Part shown: one piece after another, positions 3,292 through 13,747 of the stretch
Layout: every line of letters begins with the position of its first letter
How positions within the stretch are numbered: the first letter of the stretch is position 1
Virus record (IMG/VR): IMGVR_UViG_3300005578_000017
Span: 1 to 20,734 of that record
DNA length: 20,734 bases
Direction: 5' to 3' (one strand)
Origin: a virus
Program-made: the position numbers and the translations under genes
The notes under the pieces: generated by a model
Told to the model about the DNA's origin: nothing
The model's input: only the letters and a program-made list of their open reading frames with translations
Databases searched by the model: none

Positions 3292-4329
3292 ATGGTAGAT
3301 TTTTACGACGTTTCACCGGACGCTATGGCAGGAGTACCTCTCGGGGTTGACCCTGTTGCTCACATGCGCGCGTGCGCTCCTCTGCCCCTTCATGCCGAGG
3401 AGTATATCGATCGTGCGGTGACTCCGGTTGCTTTGGAGCGACTGGCGATCCTCGATTACCTAATCGGAAAAGGTCTTACCTATCCTATTACCGATTGGCT
3501 TGGGATCATGAATATCCGTTGGCAGAAGTCCAACAAGACAGGTAATCCTCAGTTCAGCATGTATCCGGAACCTGACCAGGTCGAAGAGCGGCGACCGGAT
3601 CTTGGGTTGGATTCTCTGCCTGTCTACTGCCTCACAGACGGTTTCAGTATCCACCCTCGTTTGTTCGCTGAGTGGGAACGCACGGGATTTCAGTCTATGG
3701 ATACTACGATGATTCAGGACTCTATCCGGCGTGAAAACGAAGCCCTAGAGTTGTCCGTGATCGAGGGGCCGCGGCGGGCAGATGGATCGCAATTCAAAGT
3801 CAATGGACAAGCGATTCCGGGCTTGCTAACCGATCCGAACGCGTCACAGTTTGCGTTCGATTCCAACTTAACATGGACGGATGCTGCAAAAGATCCTACG
3901 GATATCATCGGCGATGTTCGCGCTGCCCGGGCGATGCTGAAGGCAAACGGCCGATACGGTCCGTATGTTCTTATCATCGGTACGGACTACGATGACGTGC
4001 TTGACGCCGACTATAAGACTACTGCGTCATCCGTCATCATGACTACTCGCGAAAGAATTATGAAGTTGAGCGGTATCCAGGATATTATTATCAGTGACCG
4101 GTTCCCTGCAAGCCGAGCCGTACTGCTTCAACCCACGAATAACGTCATTGACATTGTTATCGGACAGCAACCAGCGGTTGTATCGTGGATTACAGGTCCG
4201 GCTGCACTTCCTGTTAGAAAGTGGATGACGGTTGCTTGCGTCATCCCAAGAATAAAACAAACATATGAAGGACAGAGCGGAATCGTTGTCATGAAACCGA
4301 ATCTGGGAGATCCAAATCTACCATCATAA
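3292..4329 (+). CDS. Major capsid protein (HK97 fold, encapsulin-like family)
   Basis: This 345-residue protein should form the icosahedral shell. Visible family features are an N-terminal segment with AEEYIDRAVTPVALERLAI, a charged stretch DQVEERRPDLGLDSLPVYCLTD followed by DFS-like FSIHPRLFAEWER, the helix IRRENEALELSVIEG, an IPGLLTDPNAS strand, and a C-terminal P-domain with YVLIIGTDYDDVL, IIISDRFPA, VIDIVIGQQPAVVSW and SGIVVMKPN. This is the pattern of the encapsulin-related HK97-fold capsids found with DUF2213-type proteases. There is no separate N-terminal delta domain, in keeping with the scaffold being supplied by the upstream gene. A purine-rich AAGGAAAAGGAAA site precedes the ATG. 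The length is normal for the family. Confidence 0.9.
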   Translation: MVDFYDVSPDAMAGVPLGVDPVAHMRACAPLPLHAEEYIDRAVTPVALERLAILDYLIGKGLTYPITDWLGIMNIRWQKSNKTGNPQFSMYPEPDQVEERRPDLGLDSLPVYCLTDGFSIHPRLFAEWERTGFQSMDTTMIQDSIRRENEALELSVIEGPRRADGSQFKVNGQAIPGLLTDPNASQFAFDSNLTWTDAAKDPTDIIGDVRAARAMLKANGRYGPYVLIIGTDYDDVLDADYKTTASSVIMTTRERIMKLSGIQDIIISDRFPASRAVLLQPTNNVIDIVIGQQPAVVSWITGPAALPVRKWMTVACVIPRIKQTYEGQSGIVVMKPNLGDPNLPS

Positions 4330-5270: not shown

Positions 5271-5858
5271 ATGCCCATTACTATCATCGCAACGCCCGGA
5301 GATCCGGCAGCAAATTCGTATCAAACGCTTGCCGAGTTTAAGTCCTATATTGCACTTAGGACTCCCGTCGTGGCCTGGACAACGGGGGCAAGCGATGATA
5401 CACTGTCCTCTGCCATGATTATCGGTACGCTGCTACTGGATTCCTGTTTTGACTGGACGGGGGTGGCGACTCTACCTACCCAAAATAGATCATGGCCGAG
5501 GACAGGGATGCTAAATAGAAATGGATTCCTTATTGACCCATTGTCTATTCCAGATGAGTTGAAATATGCTCAATCCGAATTTTCCTTAGCGGTGGGATCT
5601 TCCGATCTATTCGCCGATAATGATGCGGCAAAGGCAAATATTGCTGCAATCAAGGCCGGCTCCGTCGAAGTTCAGTTTCAATCCACGAGAAGCGACAGTA
5701 GAGAAGCTATAGATTTATGGGTCAGGAGACTAGGGCCAGAATTCAGATATTTATCCAATGCGGTACCGGAAGCAGTTAGATTAATGCTAATTCCTAGTTG
5801 GTATAACCAAGGAAGTATCACGAGACCTTTTATGTTTAGGCCGATGGGGGGAAATTAA
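5271..5858 (+). CDS. Head-tail adaptor, DnaT-like putative ssDNA-binding family
   Basis: This 195-residue protein fits the phage family often labelled 'DnaT-like ssDNA-binding protein' (PF20557). In structural operons it occupies the place of the adaptor ring under the portal. Features are the N-terminal ANSYQTLAEFKSYIALR, a helix of small residues around the LLLDSCFDWTG motif, the Trp-Pro signature QNRSWPRTGM, and IPDELKYAQSEFSLAV. A second half (residues 120-195) has VEVQFQSTRSDSREAI and a basic C-terminus. It begins two bases after the previous stop without its own strong ribosome binding site, so it is probably coupled to it. The DNA-binding label comes from automated naming; the adaptor role is the more likely one here. 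Confidence 0.8.
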   Translation: MPITIIATPGDPAANSYQTLAEFKSYIALRTPVVAWTTGASDDTLSSAMIIGTLLLDSCFDWTGVATLPTQNRSWPRTGMLNRNGFLIDPLSIPDELKYAQSEFSLAVGSSDLFADNDAAKANIAAIKAGSVEVQFQSTRSDSREAIDLWVRRLGPEFRYLSNAVPEAVRLMLIPSWYNQGSITRPFMFRPMGGN

Positions 5859-6080: not shown

Positions 6081-6479
6081 ATGTCTCTTGCCACTCTCTT
6101 GCAGTCCGGAGTCAAGATTGCAAATAATCTTACTGCTTCATTGCAAGTAAAAATTAAGCGCGAAGCATGGATAGGATCGGATCAATTTGGAAAAAAACAG
6201 TATGCGGCCGCTGATTATCTTGATTGTATCGTCGACGAAACGTTAAAAGAAATTCAGAATACTGCCGGCCAGACGATAGCAATCTCGGCAACTCTAACAA
6301 TTGTTGGGGATGTTTTACCCAATGGCGCCGCGGGACGAAGAGAACCAATCGATCCCAGAGATCGAATTACAATGCCAGATGGATCTATCGGGCCTATTGT
6401 ACAGTCTCCGTTTGGATCGGTAATTAATCCATTGACAGGCAGGGGATTTGTACAAGTAGTAATGATTGGGCCGAGGTAA
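6081..6479 (+). CDS. Head-closure / head-tail joining protein
   Basis: This 132-residue protein has the outline of small phage head-closure proteins that plug the adaptor ring and receive the tail. It shows an N-terminal helix (LLQSGVKIANNLTASLQ), a strand with Trp-x-Gly (IKREAWIGSDQFGKK), CIVDETLKEI, then beta strands ending in DPRDRITMPDGSIGPIVQ and the C-terminal NPLTGRGFVQVVMIG. The 'D-x-I-x-x-PDG' followed by a 'TG-x-G-F' closing strand is characteristic of this group. It comes straight after the adaptor gene, as expected for a neck cassette. A tail-completion role of the lambda gpFII type would look similar. Confidence 0.65.
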   Translation: MSLATLLQSGVKIANNLTASLQVKIKREAWIGSDQFGKKQYAAADYLDCIVDETLKEIQNTAGQTIAISATLTIVGDVLPNGAAGRREPIDPRDRITMPDGSIGPIVQSPFGSVINPLTGRGFVQVVMIGPR

Positions 6480-6542: not shown

Positions 6543-7397
6543 ATGATCACTACCTCCCACAGAGTCAAAGCAGAATACTTCGTTGAACCATGGTTTCAGC
6601 GGCGTAGAGAAGAGTTGCAAGAGGAGCCCGGGAGAATCCACAGGAAGATCTGGGAATTTGCGGTGATTGCAGAGACTTTTGGTCTTCTAAATACTTGTCC
6701 TGAATGTTTAGGTTTGGAGCTGTGTGCAGATTGTACAATGTTAGGTCGTTCTAGATTGGAAGGCTCTAAGGTTTTAGGCTTCGGAGTTGGGCGTGAGCCT
6801 CTTCCTTATTGGTTCTATCATCAGGGTTGTTACGTGATGGCTACCGATGCCCCCCTCGATATTGTCCAGGCTGACTGGCTACAATCGGGACAACATGCAG
6901 CCAGTTTAAAACAGTTGCGACAATTAAACCAGAGTACTGACAGTGACGGCCGCTTATTTTATCGCCCCGTCGACATGAATCATATCCCGTCCGACTTATT
7001 ACTAGGCAATTTCGATTTTATTTATTCCGCGGGATCATTCGAGCACCTAGGTGGACTCGATGCTGGTATTTATTTCTTTCTTCGCTCAATGGCAGCATTA
7101 AAACCCGGCGGAATAGCCTGCCATACGACAGAATATAATCCGCTTAGTGATCGGGAGACACTGAACGGCGAAGGCTTGTGCATCTATCGAAAACAGGATC
7201 TTGAAAAATTATCAATCATGCTCCAAGACCAGGGGGATGAGTTGTATCCCCTAGATTTATCCGGTGGAGATCTCGATGAAGACTTGTATATTGACAGAAT
7301 TCCTTATCATGGAATACCGAGCCACTTGAGTTTGTATATCGGACCGCATGTTACAACGAGTATTGTGCTGATTGCACGGCGAGGGGGTGTGAAATGA
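6543..7397 (+). CDS. SAM-dependent methyltransferase with Cys4 insertion
   Basis: This 284-residue protein is a class I methyltransferase. Motif I is at residues 77-88 (VLGFGVGREPLP), the acidic residue ending strand 2 is Asp102 (MATDAP), then come PVDMNHIP (142-149), the motif IV region FDFIYSAGSFEHLG (157-170) and motif V LKPGG (186-190). The SFEH-L-G form is common in methyltransferases acting on sugars or small molecules, and no DNA-methylase signature (DPPY/NPPF or PC) is visible. Ahead of motif I, Cys52, Cys55, Cys61 and Cys64 form a likely structural zinc site. It follows a 63-base purine-rich spacer and ends in an ATGA overlap with a 55-residue gene, itself overlapping a glycosyltransferase. 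The likely target is a glycan; this is inferred from the pairing. Confidence 0.8.
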   Translation: MITTSHRVKAEYFVEPWFQRRREELQEEPGRIHRKIWEFAVIAETFGLLNTCPECLGLELCADCTMLGRSRLEGSKVLGFGVGREPLPYWFYHQGCYVMATDAPLDIVQADWLQSGQHAASLKQLRQLNQSTDSDGRLFYRPVDMNHIPSDLLLGNFDFIYSAGSFEHLGGLDAGIYFFLRSMAALKPGGIACHTTEYNPLSDRETLNGEGLCIYRKQDLEKLSIMLQDQGDELYPLDLSGGDLDEDLYIDRIPYHGIPSHLSLYIGPHVTTSIVLIARRGGVK

Positions 7398-7561
7398 GCC
7401 AATATACCCATGGTGATTTTACTGTCCTAATCGGAAAGCAGATCATAGACGTTGTACGGATTGAATCGAGCGGCAGTCTTCTCATTTATTTTGATGATGC
7501 CTCTACTTTGGAGATTTTCAAGGGATCGAAGTTTCTATTCAAGCCGGATGGTGAAAAGTGA
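7394..7561 (+). CDS. Small hypothetical protein between methyltransferase and glycosyltransferase (55 aa)
   Basis: A 55-codon frame fills the space between the two enzymes. It starts in an ATGA overlap (7394-7397) and ends in a GTGA overlap (7558-7561), so all three are probably translated as a unit. The product (MSQYTHGDFTVLIGKQIIDV) alternates hydrophobic and polar residues and reads like a small all-beta domain: IIDVVRIESSGSLLIYFDD, then STLEIFKGSKFLFKPDG. There is no signal peptide and no Cys. I recognise no family. Coupling to both enzymes suggests it binds or positions one of them or their substrate. Confidence 0.6.
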   Translation: MSQYTHGDFTVLIGKQIIDVVRIESSGSLLIYFDDASTLEIFKGSKFLFKPDGEK

Positions 7562-8889
7562 AGATAATTTGGTGCGGAGATGCTGCGTGTGCTTCGGGTT
7601 TTGCCCGTTGTAGTCATGCGGTCTGCAATTATCTTCATTCACTCGGCCATGAGATCCACATCCTCGGCCTCAATTATCTCGGGGACCCTCACGAGTATCC
7701 ATATACGATTTATCCTTGTTTTCAGCCCTCAGATCTAGGCACCGATCACTATGGTATCGGACGTCTTCCATCTCTCATCCATCGGCTAAAACCAGACATC
7801 GTCGTTCTTCTTCAAGATCCATGGAATGTACGTGGGTATCTTGATAATCTTCTTGCTTCTCAAGTCAACATGCCGCCGATGATTGCATGGTTGGCAGTGG
7901 ACTCAAGGAACCAAAAATCCGCAAAAGAGCTAAACCACTCCCATCTATCTCACGTTGTAACGTGGACAGAATTCGGAGCAAAAGAATTAATTGCAGGCGG
8001 ATACACTGGTCCACTCTCGATCGTTCCTTGCGGTGTGGATGTTGATCTATTTAAGCCATTAGACAAAACTGAGTCTCGGATCAAAGTCCTCGGCGATGAT
8101 TATTCCCAATTACCAGATAATCCTTTCATCGTCGGATACGTAGGCAGAAACCAATACCGGAAGCGTTTAGACCTCACCATCGAATATTTCTCCGATTGGA
8201 TTCACCGATCAAATATTTCTAACGCCTATCTAATGCTCCACATACCTCCCACGGGTGAAGATCACGTTGACATCATATCTCTTGCTCGATATTATGATAT
8301 CGGAGAAAAACTTATCGTCAGTTCCCCTATGCGAGGATTTGAAGAGTCGTCCATGGCTCTAATCTACAACTGTTTTGATGTATTTTTATCCACGTCTCAA
8401 GCCGAAGGTTGGAATCTTCCGGCGCTCGAATCCATGGCGTGCGGAATTCCGGTAATCGTTCCGGATCAAGGTGCGACAGGGCTAGACGGAGGATGGATAA
8501 CCGAAAAAGCAGCAATCCAAATTCCGTGCAATTCTACCGCCTTGACCGCTCCGCATCCAGTGGGTATGTATACGATTGGAGGAATACCAGATAAGGAAGA
8601 AACTATCAATGCACTTGGAGTTGTGTACAATAAAAGAATTCTAGGAGGTCTCGGATTGAAAGTCCAACAGTCTATTCAAGCTGGTGTCAATCTTGCCCAT
8701 TCTTTAACTTGGGAGCAATCCGCGGAGAAATTCACAGAAGTCATTAATCATGTAGTAGACCCACGGAACGAAACTTGTTCTTGGCCGGAATGTAGTAAGC
8801 CTGCTCTTTGCTCTTCTGGAAACTATAACAATGGACTTGTCTGCTCTGATCACTTTAATATCACCAATGGTACACTCGCATGCCTGTAA
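7558..8889 (+). CDS. GT-B fold glycosyltransferase (GT4-like) with C-terminal zinc-binding tail
   Basis: This 443-residue enzyme should transfer a sugar from a nucleotide-sugar donor. The N-terminal Rossmann half begins KIIWCGDAACASGFARCSHA, with the Gly-rich loop for the acceptor side, and contains HILGLNY and IVVLLQDPW. The C-terminal half has IVPCGVD (155-161), the GRNQYRKR donor-phosphate loop (196-203), DVFLSTSQAEGWNLP and the retaining-enzyme E-x7-E motif at Glu283/Glu291 (EGWNLPALE), then SMACGIPVIVPD. Residues 407-432 add Cys407, Cys412, Cys418, Cys429 and His432, probably a zinc site and unusual for the family. The start is GTG 7558, within a GTGA overlap. It ends 10 bases inside the tail-completion gene. 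There is no membrane segment, so it acts in the cytoplasm, most likely on a virion protein or a host glycan precursor. Confidence 0.85.
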   Translation: MKIIWCGDAACASGFARCSHAVCNYLHSLGHEIHILGLNYLGDPHEYPYTIYPCFQPSDLGTDHYGIGRLPSLIHRLKPDIVVLLQDPWNVRGYLDNLLASQVNMPPMIAWLAVDSRNQKSAKELNHSHLSHVVTWTEFGAKELIAGGYTGPLSIVPCGVDVDLFKPLDKTESRIKVLGDDYSQLPDNPFIVGYVGRNQYRKRLDLTIEYFSDWIHRSNISNAYLMLHIPPTGEDHVDIISLARYYDIGEKLIVSSPMRGFEESSMALIYNCFDVFLSTSQAEGWNLPALESMACGIPVIVPDQGATGLDGGWITEKAAIQIPCNSTALTAPHPVGMYTIGGIPDKEETINALGVVYNKRILGGLGLKVQQSIQAGVNLAHSLTWEQSAEKFTEVINHVVDPRNETCSWPECSKPALCSSGNYNNGLVCSDHFNITNGTLACL

Positions 8890-9305
8890 CTTTTGATGCC
8901 AACGCTCTCGCCGCGATGAAGGCCAAAATGGCTGCGATCACAGAGCAGACTCGTGCTAGATCAGCGTCCGCAGTATACGTGGAAGCTAATCTCATAATGA
9001 CGAATGCTAAACAAAATTTTGTTCCCGTCGATCTTGGGACCCTCCGTAATTCTGGTACCGTGAGCCAACCAATTATTGCCGAAGATGGAACAATTTCCAT
9101 TAAACTATATTTCGGTGGTGCTGCTGCCCCTTATGCACTAGCAATTCATGAGCACCCATCTTCTTTCGATCCGCCGAGCTGGAGAGGAAAACCAATACTA
9201 AATTTCCGCGGCAAACAAGGACGTGGCCCTAAATATTTAGAATATCCACTACGTCAGGCAGAAAACGGAATGGCAGAAAGATTAGCGGCGAGAATTAGAA
9301 AATGA
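8880..9305 (+). CDS. HK97 gp10-like tail completion protein
   Basis: This 141-residue protein matches the HK97 gp10 / minor neck protein family that completes the tail top. It has an N-terminal helix with Arg/Ala ([20 protein letters not shown]), the conserved [14 protein letters not shown], a strand pair [10 protein letters not shown]-type followed by [10 protein letters not shown], and the C-terminal helix [21 protein letters not shown]. The PVD-x-GTLR-x-S and YA-x-x-x-HE signatures are the family's hallmarks. The start overlaps the glycosyltransferase end by 10 bases, and the stop overlaps the next ATG (ATGA, 9302-9305). The family usually follows the head-closure gene directly; here the methyltransferase-glycosyltransferase cassette separates them. 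Confidence 0.85.
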
Positions 9306-10732
9306 AAAAAATTATCCCCGTTGCAATTATTCTTCTTATGGGTTCTATCGCGTATAGCCATGCTCAGACCGTTGGTGGAATCTCATCCGGGGCGTTCGGG
9401 GATAAACATTGGAAATCCCCCGTAGCTTCATTTGTAAATCTTCCTTTGTCTGGAAACAGTATCGCGGATACCCGGCGCACTATGGACGATGGGGATGAGT
9501 ATTGGTGGGATGGAATAATCTGGCAACCATCAAATTCAAGTACCATTAGTGGTAGTAATTGGAGCAGTGGAAATACAATTCCTACTGGTGGTAATAATGG
9601 GGATTTTTATTTACAAGACAATGGGGACGTCTGGAAAAACTCCTCTGGTGTTTGGTCTATTGTGACAAATATTGTGGGACCAGAGGGACCGCAAGGGGAG
9701 CAAGGGCTACAGGGAGAGCCGGGATTGCAGGGTCTCCAAGGCCCACAAGGGCTGCAAGGGCCGCAGGGCTCGAAAGGTGATACGGGAGACAAGGGGGATA
9801 CGGGTGACATAGGACCACAAGGAGTACAGGGTATACAGGGTCTCACAGGTGCTACAGGCGCCACAGGCCCGCAGGGTCCAACCGGAGCAACTGGCCCTAC
9901 AGGAGCCGCCGGTCCTGCCGGTTCCGATGGTATCCCACGGACGATTCTAGATGAAGGATCTCCACTTACCCAGCGTACAGATATCAATTTTACTGGTTCT
10001 GGAATTTTCTGTACTGATAATTCTGGATCTGCTAGAACCGATTGTACAATCTCCACACCTGCACATGCATCTACTCATAAAAACGGGGGTTCGGACGAGA
10101 TCTCCACAGCAACACCTACCGCGAATGCTATTCCAAAAGCTGGATCTGGAGGTCAATTAGCATCCGGATGGGTATCACCAGCGGGGTCTACAACTCAATT
10201 TCAATTTAATGATGCGGGCGTGTTAGCGGGCTCCACTTTCACGTGGGACAAAACTACCAGCACGGTTAAATTTGGTAACAATGCAGCTATATGGAGTCCT
10301 GGTGCGCCTGATTTGTATTTTGGAACCAACAACCGATCTGCTGGAGCATGGGTGTATTTCAAAGGATTTTTCTTATCAGACTCTTTCGGTGCCTCAACGA
10401 TGTCCTACGGGAGCAACTCATTTCCGACTACGTTAGGACTTGCGAGCGGCAGCACCATCGGCTGGACGTCTGGTAGTGGATCTGATCAGAGTAAAGATGT
10501 TGGTCTCGCGCGCGATTCGGCTGGTGTTCTACGTGTCACCAACGGTTCCAGCGGCTCCGGTACGGTCAAAGCATCCGCTGTACTCTTGACGCCGCAAGTG
10601 TCACCGCCTGTGACATGTGGTACTGCTGGTACAGAGGGGACTCAGTATTACGATACGTCACACGCACTTTGTATTTGTGGTGCTTCAACTTGGACCAATT
10701 TGACACCAGCAGATGGAGGAAGCTGTTCATGA
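9302..10732 (+). CDS. Collagen-like fibre protein with N-terminal signal peptide
   Basis: This 476-residue protein has four parts. Residues 1-21 are a typical Sec signal peptide: KK, a hydrophobic core [15 protein letters not shown], and SHA before the predicted cut. Residues 22-125 are a globular region with Trp-rich patches ([26 protein letters not shown]). Residues 126-209 are 28 uninterrupted Gly-X-Y triplets. The C-terminal part begins [14 protein letters not shown], a motif common after collagen stretches in phage fibres, and ends in a small domain with Cys-x-Cys ([19 protein letters not shown]). Such architecture marks a trimeric fibre. It is coupled at both ends by ATGA overlaps within the neck/tail operon. 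The signal peptide is odd for a virion protein, so a secreted lysogenic-conversion fibre is the main alternative. Confidence 0.75.
9677..9928 (+). repeat. Collagen-type Gly-X-Y repeat coding region (28 triplets)
   Basis: Twenty-eight consecutive codon triplets encode Gly-X-Y. The first half is rich in Gln/Leu (GLQ, GPQ), the middle in GDT/GDK, and the last third in Thr (GLT, GAT, GPT). At DNA level this gives a tandem 9-base repeat with varied codons, so the repeat is diverged rather than freshly expanded. GXT triplets are the type glycosylated in bacterial collagens. Confidence 0.9.
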
Positions 10733-11133
10733 GAAAAATCGCGATCATCACATCTATTATACTGGCTCTGTCATTATTTGTCTCGTCTAGTGTTTCTGCT
10801 GGCGTGAGGAATTGCACCTCGGCACTGGTAACTGCTGGTCTGTGTACTAGTGCTACTGATGTTCTGTTAACTTTTTCTCTTCCCACTACAGATCCTGACG
10901 GAGCTGGTCCGCGAGTTTCCATTACAATCCAAGTACAGGAAGGTTGTGCACTTTGGTATGGGTATCAAGCAACGATCAATGGATCTCCAAATCCTGAAAG
11001 TAAGGCTCTGTTTTGTGATCGTATGATTCGAACAGATGTACTGAAGAGGTTTGCAGATATCTACTATAATTCTTTAGCAGAAGCACTGAAACAAACACAG
11101 CTTACTGCTACGCCTACAGATACTATTCCTTGA
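10729..11133 (+). CDS. Small Cys-rich exported protein (134 aa, hypothetical)
   Basis: The start is ATG 10729, in an ATGA overlap with the fibre gene. A longer in-frame version from 10615 would run back through the fibre gene and bury the signal peptide. Residues 1-24 ([20 protein letters not shown], then SVSA) form a clear Sec signal peptide with an Ala-x-Ala-like cut before Gly25; there is no lipobox Cys. The mature part holds Cys29, Cys39, Cys73 and Cys96, an even number that could form two disulphides outside the cytoplasm. A beta-type stretch [18 protein letters not shown] is followed by an amphipathic C-terminal helix ([20 protein letters not shown]). I recognise no family. Coupling to the fibre gene suggests a partner or chaperone for that protein. 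Confidence 0.65.
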
Positions 11134-12108: not shown

Positions 12109-12591
12109 ATGGGACAAGGTAAGTCTGGTTTTGGTGTTAAAATCGGGGTAGAAATGGACCCCATTGGAACACCGGGAGTTATTACTCGCATTGGCGGATT
12201 GGTCGGCGATATTCCCTATCCCGATCTATCTCACCCGGAAACTGAAGCCACTGAGCACGGTGAGCCCGTAGATGATTATGTGGTGGCCGGGTATACGGCC
12301 CGATCTTTATTTAAATTTTCTGTAAACTTTAACTACAATGATGCAACCCATGATCATCTTACGGGGTTGTACCATATTTTCGAACCGATATACAACATTC
12401 CCCGAGGTTGGCAGATTACAGGTCCATTAGCAACCCCTGGGGGCAAAATCAACGAATGGCTGTTTAGTGGACAGATCCAAATGATTCAAAAGAAATCCGC
12501 GCAAAAGGGTGTACAGAGCGCGGATGTGTCAATTAGACCCAAGGGTGCTTGGTGGATTGATGGGATTAAGTTTGGAGTTGCGGCAACATAA
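12109..12591 (+). CDS. Major tail (tube) protein
   Basis: This 160-residue protein follows the tail terminator and precedes the frameshifted chaperones, the standard position of the tube protein in siphophages. It has one of the best ribosome binding sites in the window (AAAAAGGAGA), as expected for the most abundant tail protein. Sequence features are the N-terminal GFGVKIGVEMD followed by the IGGLVGDIPYP loop, a 'THP/HPETEATEH'-type segment, VKFSVNFNY-like KFSVNFNYNDATHDHL, the Trp-containing YNIPRGWQITGPL, and WLFSGQIQMIQKKSA leading to SADVSIRPKGAWW. This matches the lambda gpV-type tube fold. Normal length, no extra Ig-like domain at the C-terminus. Confidence 0.8.
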   Translation: MGQGKSGFGVKIGVEMDPIGTPGVITRIGGLVGDIPYPDLSHPETEATEHGEPVDDYVVAGYTARSLFKFSVNFNYNDATHDHLTGLYHIFEPIYNIPRGWQITGPLATPGGKINEWLFSGQIQMIQKKSAQKGVQSADVSIRPKGAWWIDGIKFGVAAT

Positions 12592-13135: not shown

Positions 13136-13548
13136 AAATTGAACGTGAAAACCAGGCTGTAGAGTGCTACCGTTTTGCATACTTTCTTGCTTTGAGCTTC
13201 CATCGTCTAGACGTCGATGAAATGCTAGAAGAATTATCCTGGGAAGAATTTGACGGATGGATGACTTATTATGTGATCTCTCCTTGGGGCGAAGAAAGGG
13301 CAGATTTACGGTGTGGAATAATTACATCTAAAATCCACAACGTAAATGTAATAGAGAAATCTGATTTACTATCCCCGATAGATTTCATGCCTTACGCAAA
13401 ACGTCCAGAGCCTGAACCTATATCACCGGAGGAGTGGGAGAGAGCAAAATCAGCGCACAGGGCGGTAGGGGAAAGGTCAGATACCGAGATACTAGTGGCT
13501 ACTGAATGCGTGCTAGAGGAAATAGAGGTGATTGAAGATGTCGACTAG
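12644..13548 (+). CDS. Tail assembly chaperone G-T, made by -1 frameshift (join 12644..13006, 13006..13548)
   Basis: Ribosomes that slip back one base on GGGAAAC (13000-13006) read on into a frame open from 12988 to 13548, giving a 301-residue fusion. The shifted part first runs through an Arg/Glu/Gly-rich linker, then NELKSEHELEIERENQAVEC, and reaches the T domain: YRFAYFLALSFHRLDVDEM, LSWEEFDGWMTYYVISPWG and EERADLRCGIITS. The last two motifs are classic for T domains. A separate start for the T part would have to be TTG 13192, which has no ribosome binding site and lies after the conserved helix has begun, so it is not used. In lambda the G-T protein recruits tube protein to the tape measure-chaperone complex and is absent from the virion. 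Confidence 0.85.
13000..13048 (+). promoter_or_regulatory. Programmed -1 ribosomal frameshift element (slippery site plus stem-loop)
   Basis: The heptamer G GGA AAC (13000-13006) is in the right phase for -1 slippage (X XXY YYZ) with respect to the G frame. After a 7-base spacer, GGTCAGCGCT (13014-13023) can pair with GGTGCTGACC (13039-13048): seven perfect Watson-Crick pairs, then G-U, C-G and U-G, closing a 15-base loop. The spacing is within the usual range for a stimulatory structure. The shifted frame opens only 12 bases before the site and runs to 13548. Confidence 0.85.
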
Positions 13549-13747
13549 CTGGTATTACCATTATAGTCTGCGGTGTTCTTATTGTGGCAGTTATTTGCAC
13601 ACGGTAGCATACTGCCCAAAGACCTATAACGGTTCTGCTAATCGTCAGAATCTTCGTTGTACGTACTGCGGATCAAATTCTCACAATAAAGATGCCTGTC
13701 CAGAGAAGTGGCCTGGAGACAATCCCGTTGTAATATTCGATCGATGA
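13538..13747 (+). CDS. Double CCHC zinc-knuckle protein
   Basis: The ATG at 13538 is chosen over an in-frame TTG at 13532 because AGAGGTG (13523-13529) is then well spaced. The gene overlaps the end of the T frame by 11 bases. The 69-residue product contains two C-x2-C-x4-H-x4-C knuckles: Cys13/Cys16/His21/Cys26 and Cys41/Cys44/His49/Cys54, each with the YCGS-x-x-H core and followed by CPKTY or CPEKW. Such knuckles bind single-stranded nucleic acid or small proteins in other systems. Similar small proteins occur between tail chaperone and tape measure genes in other phages, but I know of no established role. The protein lacks a signal peptide and acts in the infected cell. Confidence 0.8.
   Translation: MSTSWYYHYSLRCSYCGSYLHTVAYCPKTYNGSANRQNLRCTYCGSNSHNKDACPEKWPGDNPVVIFDR

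Follow-up and report, generated by a model that had tools for sequence, protein, structure and literature searches.

The window analysed here is a whole IMG/VR virus record of 20,734 bases, from a bacterial virus known from environmental DNA only, and it encodes a methyltransferase and a glycosyltransferase among the genes for the neck of the virion. Three plus-strand ORFs of 284, 55 and 443 aa span positions 6543-8889: a class I SAM-dependent methyltransferase (MT, 6543-7397), a 55-aa ORF without clear homologue (7394-7561), and a GT4-type glycosyltransferase (GT, 7558-8889) with a GTG start. Their successive overlaps measure 4, 4 and 10 nt (ATGA, GTGA, and a 10-nt overlap with the following gp10-like gene). 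This layout, together with the positions of the Cys and His residues discussed below, is exactly as an earlier sequence-only reading had described it.

The surrounding genes encode virion proteins, with the capsid, Ad1, neck, gp10-like and major tail genes on the same strand. Upstream lie the major capsid protein (MCP, 3292-4329), the head-tail adaptor Ad1 (5271-5858; PF20557, E 3e-22; PHROG_477, E 2.5e-29) and a further neck gene (6081-6479). The cassette is followed by the gp10-like tail completion gene (8880-9305), a collagen-like fibre gene, and then the major tail protein (12109-12591; PHROG_158, E 1.5e-5) and tail assembly proteins. The GT and methyltransferase genes are thus found inside the virion structural operon, and the MCP and the major tail protein are candidate acceptors for a sugar. 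The flanking genes had been read as head closure and gp10-like. The latter identity has partial support, from PHROG_5 (E 2e-6), with TIGR01725 scoring 13.9, below its cut-off of 30.8; nothing but its position marks the upstream gene as head closure, and the PHROG family that it matches best has an unknown function (E 0.012).

The GT exceeds the Pfam cut-offs for PF00534 (41.5 vs 26.4 bits), PF13692 (40.1 vs 27 bits) and PF13439 (36.4 vs 28.5 bits). It also matches PHROG_2170 (E 7e-25), a glycosyltransferase family whose label, moron/auxiliary gene, is an annotation rather than a tested function. Two glutamates, E283 and E291, are invariant in alignment A4, and we take them to be the EX7E motif of GT4 enzymes. 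When the GT profile was searched against the PDB, the best match was chlorella virus B736L (3OY2; E 5e-29, 104 bits, full length), a protein beside which no methyltransferase is known; the next match scored 45 bits. On these sequence matches the 443-aa protein is classed as a GT4-type glycosyltransferase. The MT falls below the Pfam cut-offs (Methyltransf_11, 14.0 vs 21.2 bits; Methyltransf_12, 14.6 vs 30 bits), and its class comes from structure prediction. An AlphaFold2 model built with 28 aligned homologues, which share 25 invariant columns, reached a pLDDT of 91.6 and superimposed on 1vl5 with a Z of 15.0 (rmsd 3.5 over 186 residues; top rows tied). As modelled, the fold of the 284-aa protein is that of a class I SAM methyltransferase. 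RebM (3bus) followed at Z 14.4, tied with unrelated methyltransferases, and the Foldseek and VIA matches indicate no single substrate class.

To place the locus among its relatives, IMG/VR was scanned with the GT alignment. The scan confirmed 353 relatives, and the analysis covered the best 80 of these. These 80 loci form 64 clusters at 90% identity, a 19-aa GT fragment (L017) having been dropped from clustering; L008 and L009 are near-identical, and L080 and L105 are contigs of L012 and L013, respectively. By profile mapping, the gp10-like gene immediately follows the GT, as its constant downstream neighbour, in 78 of these best 80. The two exceptions are L061, where the query GT comes after g11156, and L080, where the contig ends. 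Counted from the GT stop, the gp10 profile match begins between -130 and +65 nt in 72 of 79 loci (L061 included). Among the 78 real GT/gp10 pairs, a possible start codon overlaps the GT stop by 1-17 nt in 55, and in another 14 such a codon lies no more than 14 nt after it. Since the junction is kept in the relatives, the old and maintained junction that had been deduced from the 10-base overlap in the window alone generalises.

Loci chosen by other genes give a broader picture, although the MCP and gp10 profiles (A8 and A12) draw on GT-bearing loci and the window, which leaves these controls not fully independent. Among 80 loci picked by gp10 similarity, 47 have an adjacent GT, 2 have one further upstream, 26 have none and 5 are too short, which puts a GT upstream in 49 of 75 evaluable loci. 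Two of 13 loci picked by capsid similarity end before the slot; a GT is present in all 11 others, and in nine of these it immediately precedes gp10. Whole-length searches of six other long records show a strong GT match, single in five (G004-G008) and double in G009; G004 and G006 also have weak matches (E about 3e-5) next to the main one. No GT match was found anywhere in L157 (40,172 bases) or L171 (60,147 bases), both with the same capsid and tail genes, nor in the complete genome of Brevundimonas phage MaInes (68,997 bases), a cultured capsid relative. Because these three carry none, the virion architecture does not need the GT. In GT-less loci where both neck genes are seen, 6 of 11 cases leave 20-117 nt between the end of the counterpart of the 6081-6479 gene and the gp10-like match, and the remaining 5 have gaps of 597-1324 nt. 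The premise that the two genes are normally adjacent is partly borne out.

The divergence of the GT was compared with that of the virion proteins. Median pairwise identity is 0.48 for the GT (inflated, as the 80 loci were ranked by GT similarity), 0.34 for MCP, 0.34 for gp10 and 0.36 for the tail tube. GT distances correlate with those of the tail tube (r 0.65) and MCP (r 0.60), tube and MCP correlate with each other at 0.64, and 0 of 999 permutations reach these values. The correlations of gp10 are weaker (0.31 with GT, 0.26 with tube, 0.24 with MCP). As GT divergence tracks the tail tube and MCP, the GT has largely travelled with the virion genes. Together with its place before gp10 and the adjacent GTs of the gp10-picked control, this bears out the proposal of an old and maintained insertion. 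The finding named beforehand as able to overturn the earlier reading of a coupled glycan cassette, homologues confined to sites outside phage operons, did not occur. A contig of a near relative (L112), with an MCP 88% identical to that of the window, stops short of the cassette.

An MT lies upstream on 13 of the best 80 GT loci, with 49-aa MT matches in L102 and L103 left out of this count, and 9 of these 13 MTs are either joined to the GT or end no more than 130 nt from it. MT and GT form one ORF in 5 of 13 MT-bearing clusters (L008/L009, L012/L080, L014, L044 and L048/L050). The fused protein of L008/L009, 1343 aa long, carries a GT-A-like region and a Cys-rich stretch ahead of the enzyme pair. 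L013 and L016 instead have an MT joined to a nucleotidyltransferase-like domain (MobA-like; E 3e-7 for L013). Fusion in some relatives and adjacency elsewhere are strong evidence that MT and GT serve one pathway, and so the suggestion that the two act as a coupled unit is upheld.

The MT has homologues at 15 viral and 9 bacterial loci. A tree of 28 MTs places the 14 neck MTs with one other phage MT in a clade of 100/100 support, apart from the bacterial MTs, and fused MT-GT forms occur on three separate branches. Among 50,697 phage records there was no match to the MT and no homologue of the whole trio from a cultured phage; the GT has matches in 11 cultured-phage records, all below 60% identity. 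Two Planctomycete loci (L023 and L026) hold two MT-family copies each, among further GT matches, and in L023 the ORF of the second copy continues into an FkbM-type methyltransferase domain.

Relatives hold other glycan-type enzymes in the slot that separates the 6081-type gene from the GT, as seen in 10 hand-picked proteins from 5 loci. L051 combines a GT2 with a methyltransferase and a C-methyltransferase (Methyltransf_14, E 1e-44). A hexapeptide transferase occurs in L095, together with a weak match to GT2; L034 has two methyltransferases and a weak match to a sulfotransferase, L041 a Methyltransf_24, and L088 a radical-SAM match below cut-off. Furthermore, two query regions of GT-A type, so called by reading their translations (Pfam gave no match), have profile matches in 30 of 110 loci. 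The slot of L088 (L088:1409-8001) extends over 6.6 kb between neck gene and GT and includes an ORF that reads as lysozyme-like in translation.

The remaining features of the cassette are restricted to the window. For the 55-aa ORF, Pfam, PHROGs and NCBIfam gave no match better than E 0.065, and there were 0 matches in the viral scan and 0 in 110 loci. Its best match among 27,820 ORFs is one just after the MT of L047 (E 0.79), which is suggestive and not significant; an hmmsearch with this pair recovers L047 by construction and was left out of the evidence. The predicted structure is poor (pLDDT 63.7). With 0 significant homologues, the 55-residue protein finds no support as a conserved partner of the enzymes. 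The Cys clusters, which had been put forward as features added to both enzymes, are likewise absent from relatives and were rejected as general features of the cassette. The insert of the MT (C52 to C64; 6696-6734, plus strand), a possible zinc knuckle modelled at low confidence (pLDDT 55-58), occurs in 0 of 27 other aligned MTs. The C-terminal tail of the GT (C407 to H432; 8776-8853, plus strand), a possible zinc finger, is missing from the other GTs among 85 GT tails compared. Of these tails only that of L047 is Cys-rich outside a fused domain, and it is built differently; the Cys residues in the tails of L032, L040, L043 and L095 lie within a fused stretch that reads as GT2-like in translation. 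C407, C412, C429 and H432 presumably resemble a common phage zinc motif, and Pfam gave nothing convincing for the tail. The Cys segments may be zinc-binding additions, and they and the 55-aa ORF would be late acquisitions of this phage.

The observations, namely gene order, enzyme families, MT fold, fusion in relatives, fixed position and co-divergence with virion genes, are best explained if MT and GT are two steps of one phage glycan pathway that places a methylated sugar on a virion protein, which we regard as probable by a modest measure. The two enzymes would be produced alongside the neck proteins, and the overlaps of start and stop codons would couple their translation to each other and to that of the gp10-like gene. 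The soluble GT4-type enzyme would take a sugar from a nucleotide-sugar donor, probably one of the host, and move it to a virion protein or to a sugar already there, and the MT would then O-methylate that sugar, capping the glycan. Against this stand the presence of an MT on only 13 of the 80 GT loci and the lack of a GT in L157, L171 and MaInes.

The virion as the site of the sugar is suggested by the match to B736L and by known cases. In the Corndog mycobacteriophage (cluster O, gp35-gp38), as described in PMC4351075, an O-methyltransferase and GTs lie between portal and protease, and capsid modification has been proposed; that paper reports the enzymes in infected cells, not among the virion proteins. 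The likeness to the window is an O-methyltransferase with GTs within the virion structural operon, and the difference is the site, which in the window is the neck. No Corndog record appeared among the GT or MT matches, the Corndog record itself not having been located in the data searched. In chlorovirus PBCV-1 (A064R and A061L), according to PMC9614988, A064R unites two GTs and a methyltransferase in one protein and caps the capsid glycan with methylated rhamnose. A single polypeptide of this kind is found in the fused MT-GT relatives and not in the window, where the two are separate ORFs; A064R further differs in its order (GT-GT-MT vs MT-GT), in GT domains described as other families, and in its eukaryotic host. 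The same paper describes B736L of chlorovirus NY-2A (PDB 3OY2/3OY7), the full-length homologue of the window GT, as a GT-B enzyme that binds GDP-mannose and whose own acceptor is unresolved. Lastly, PMC12363180 refers to Freeman 2023 for glycosylation of the capsid and tail tube of mycobacteriophages. These analogues would therefore favour a methylated sugar on a virion protein.

The main rival is that the enzymes modify an envelope glycan of the host (lipopolysaccharide, capsule or S-layer) late in infection, blocking re-adsorption of progeny or superinfection. It owes this rank to the bacterial MT loci: in the genome scan all nine (9/9) also hold GT-profile matches, with phage genes not near, a setting that fits envelope glycans too, and GT4 enzymes commonly build such glycans (NCBIfam matches, all below cut-off). 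We nonetheless consider it unlikely. The MT, GT and 55-aa ORF have no membrane segment (highest 19-aa hydropathy 1.18), no flippase or anchor gene was recognised in the slots examined, and the GT keeps a fixed place among virion genes, with which it also diverges. Of the original proposal, a methyl-capped sugar on a virion protein or a modification of the host envelope, the methyl-capped sugar thus stands as the best reading by analogy; as its site the virion is favoured over the host envelope.

Action on small molecules or on a host protein, by a pair merely parked in the structural operon, would agree with the small-molecule methyltransferases among the fold matches of the MT. It is improbable, as the fixed position, the fusion to the GT and the replacement by other glycan-type enzymes fit a glycan better. 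Modification of phage DNA, in the manner of T4-type glucosyltransferases, appears more improbable still. Both would involve GT-B type enzymes, and since HHpred also pairs the T4 DNA alpha-glucosyltransferase with B736L (PMC6024577), the B736L match alone does not exclude a DNA acceptor. However, no T4 glucosyltransferase is among the 18 PDB sequences matched by the GT at E up to 0.001, neither enzyme has a convincing match to a DNA-modification family (the MT has one PHROG DNA-methyltransferase match, at E 0.66), and the genes sit among structural, not replication, genes.

Enzymes for virion glycans in a structural operon are of a kind already known; what is new is the neck position, the locked GT, the variable slot and the repeated MT-GT fusion. 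No description of this neck lineage was found in the open-licence PMC literature, subscription papers lying outside that coverage. A bolder and rather doubtful extension of a methylated sugar on the virion is that the GT4-type enzyme is a core neck gene that installs the virion-glycan sugar throughout a large uncultivated phage lineage. The upstream slot, with its methyltransferases, GT-A enzymes, nucleotidyltransferase and acyl- and C-methyltransferases, would then be swapped like a bacterial O-antigen locus to give particle 'serotypes', and zinc-knuckle segments and the 55-aa ORF would replace the MT-GT fusion in the window. Virion glycosylation has been reported for few phages in the literature covered and is also known in algal viruses. 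If the virion is indeed the site, a lineage with a sugar enzyme fixed like capsid and tail genes, exchangeable modifying enzymes and repeated MT-GT fusion would point to phage particles with glycan coats being widespread in nature, and the function of the coat (evasion, adsorption or stability) would become testable on defined genes.

An MCP-profile search for hosts gave no match in 4 and 299 genomes and, having no positive control, is uninformative. Further along the window, the collagen-like fibre gene (9302-10732) and the next small gene (about 10729-11133) both start with a signal-peptide-like hydrophobic stretch, which is unusual for virion proteins. In L014, the ORF that follows gp10 has a similar start. 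A small protein at 13532-13747 has two CCHC zinc-knuckle-like motifs and no match in a PHROG search. Its homologue (L008:2825-3037; 57% identity over 54 residues) lies in L008/L009 between Ad1 and the next neck gene.

Among cultured phages, homologous GTs 22-29% identical to that of the window stand in the structural regions of Synechococcus phage S-CBS4, Pontimonas phage phiPsal1 and Microcystis phage Mae-JY09, between portal and protease or between capsid and neck genes rather than before gp10. S-CBS4 and phiPsal1 also resemble the window in having a SAM methyltransferase, along with a second GT, in that region. In S-CBS4 (L003:9049-11415), GT, second GT and SAM methyltransferase lie together between portal and protease, and this phage is a possible laboratory model.
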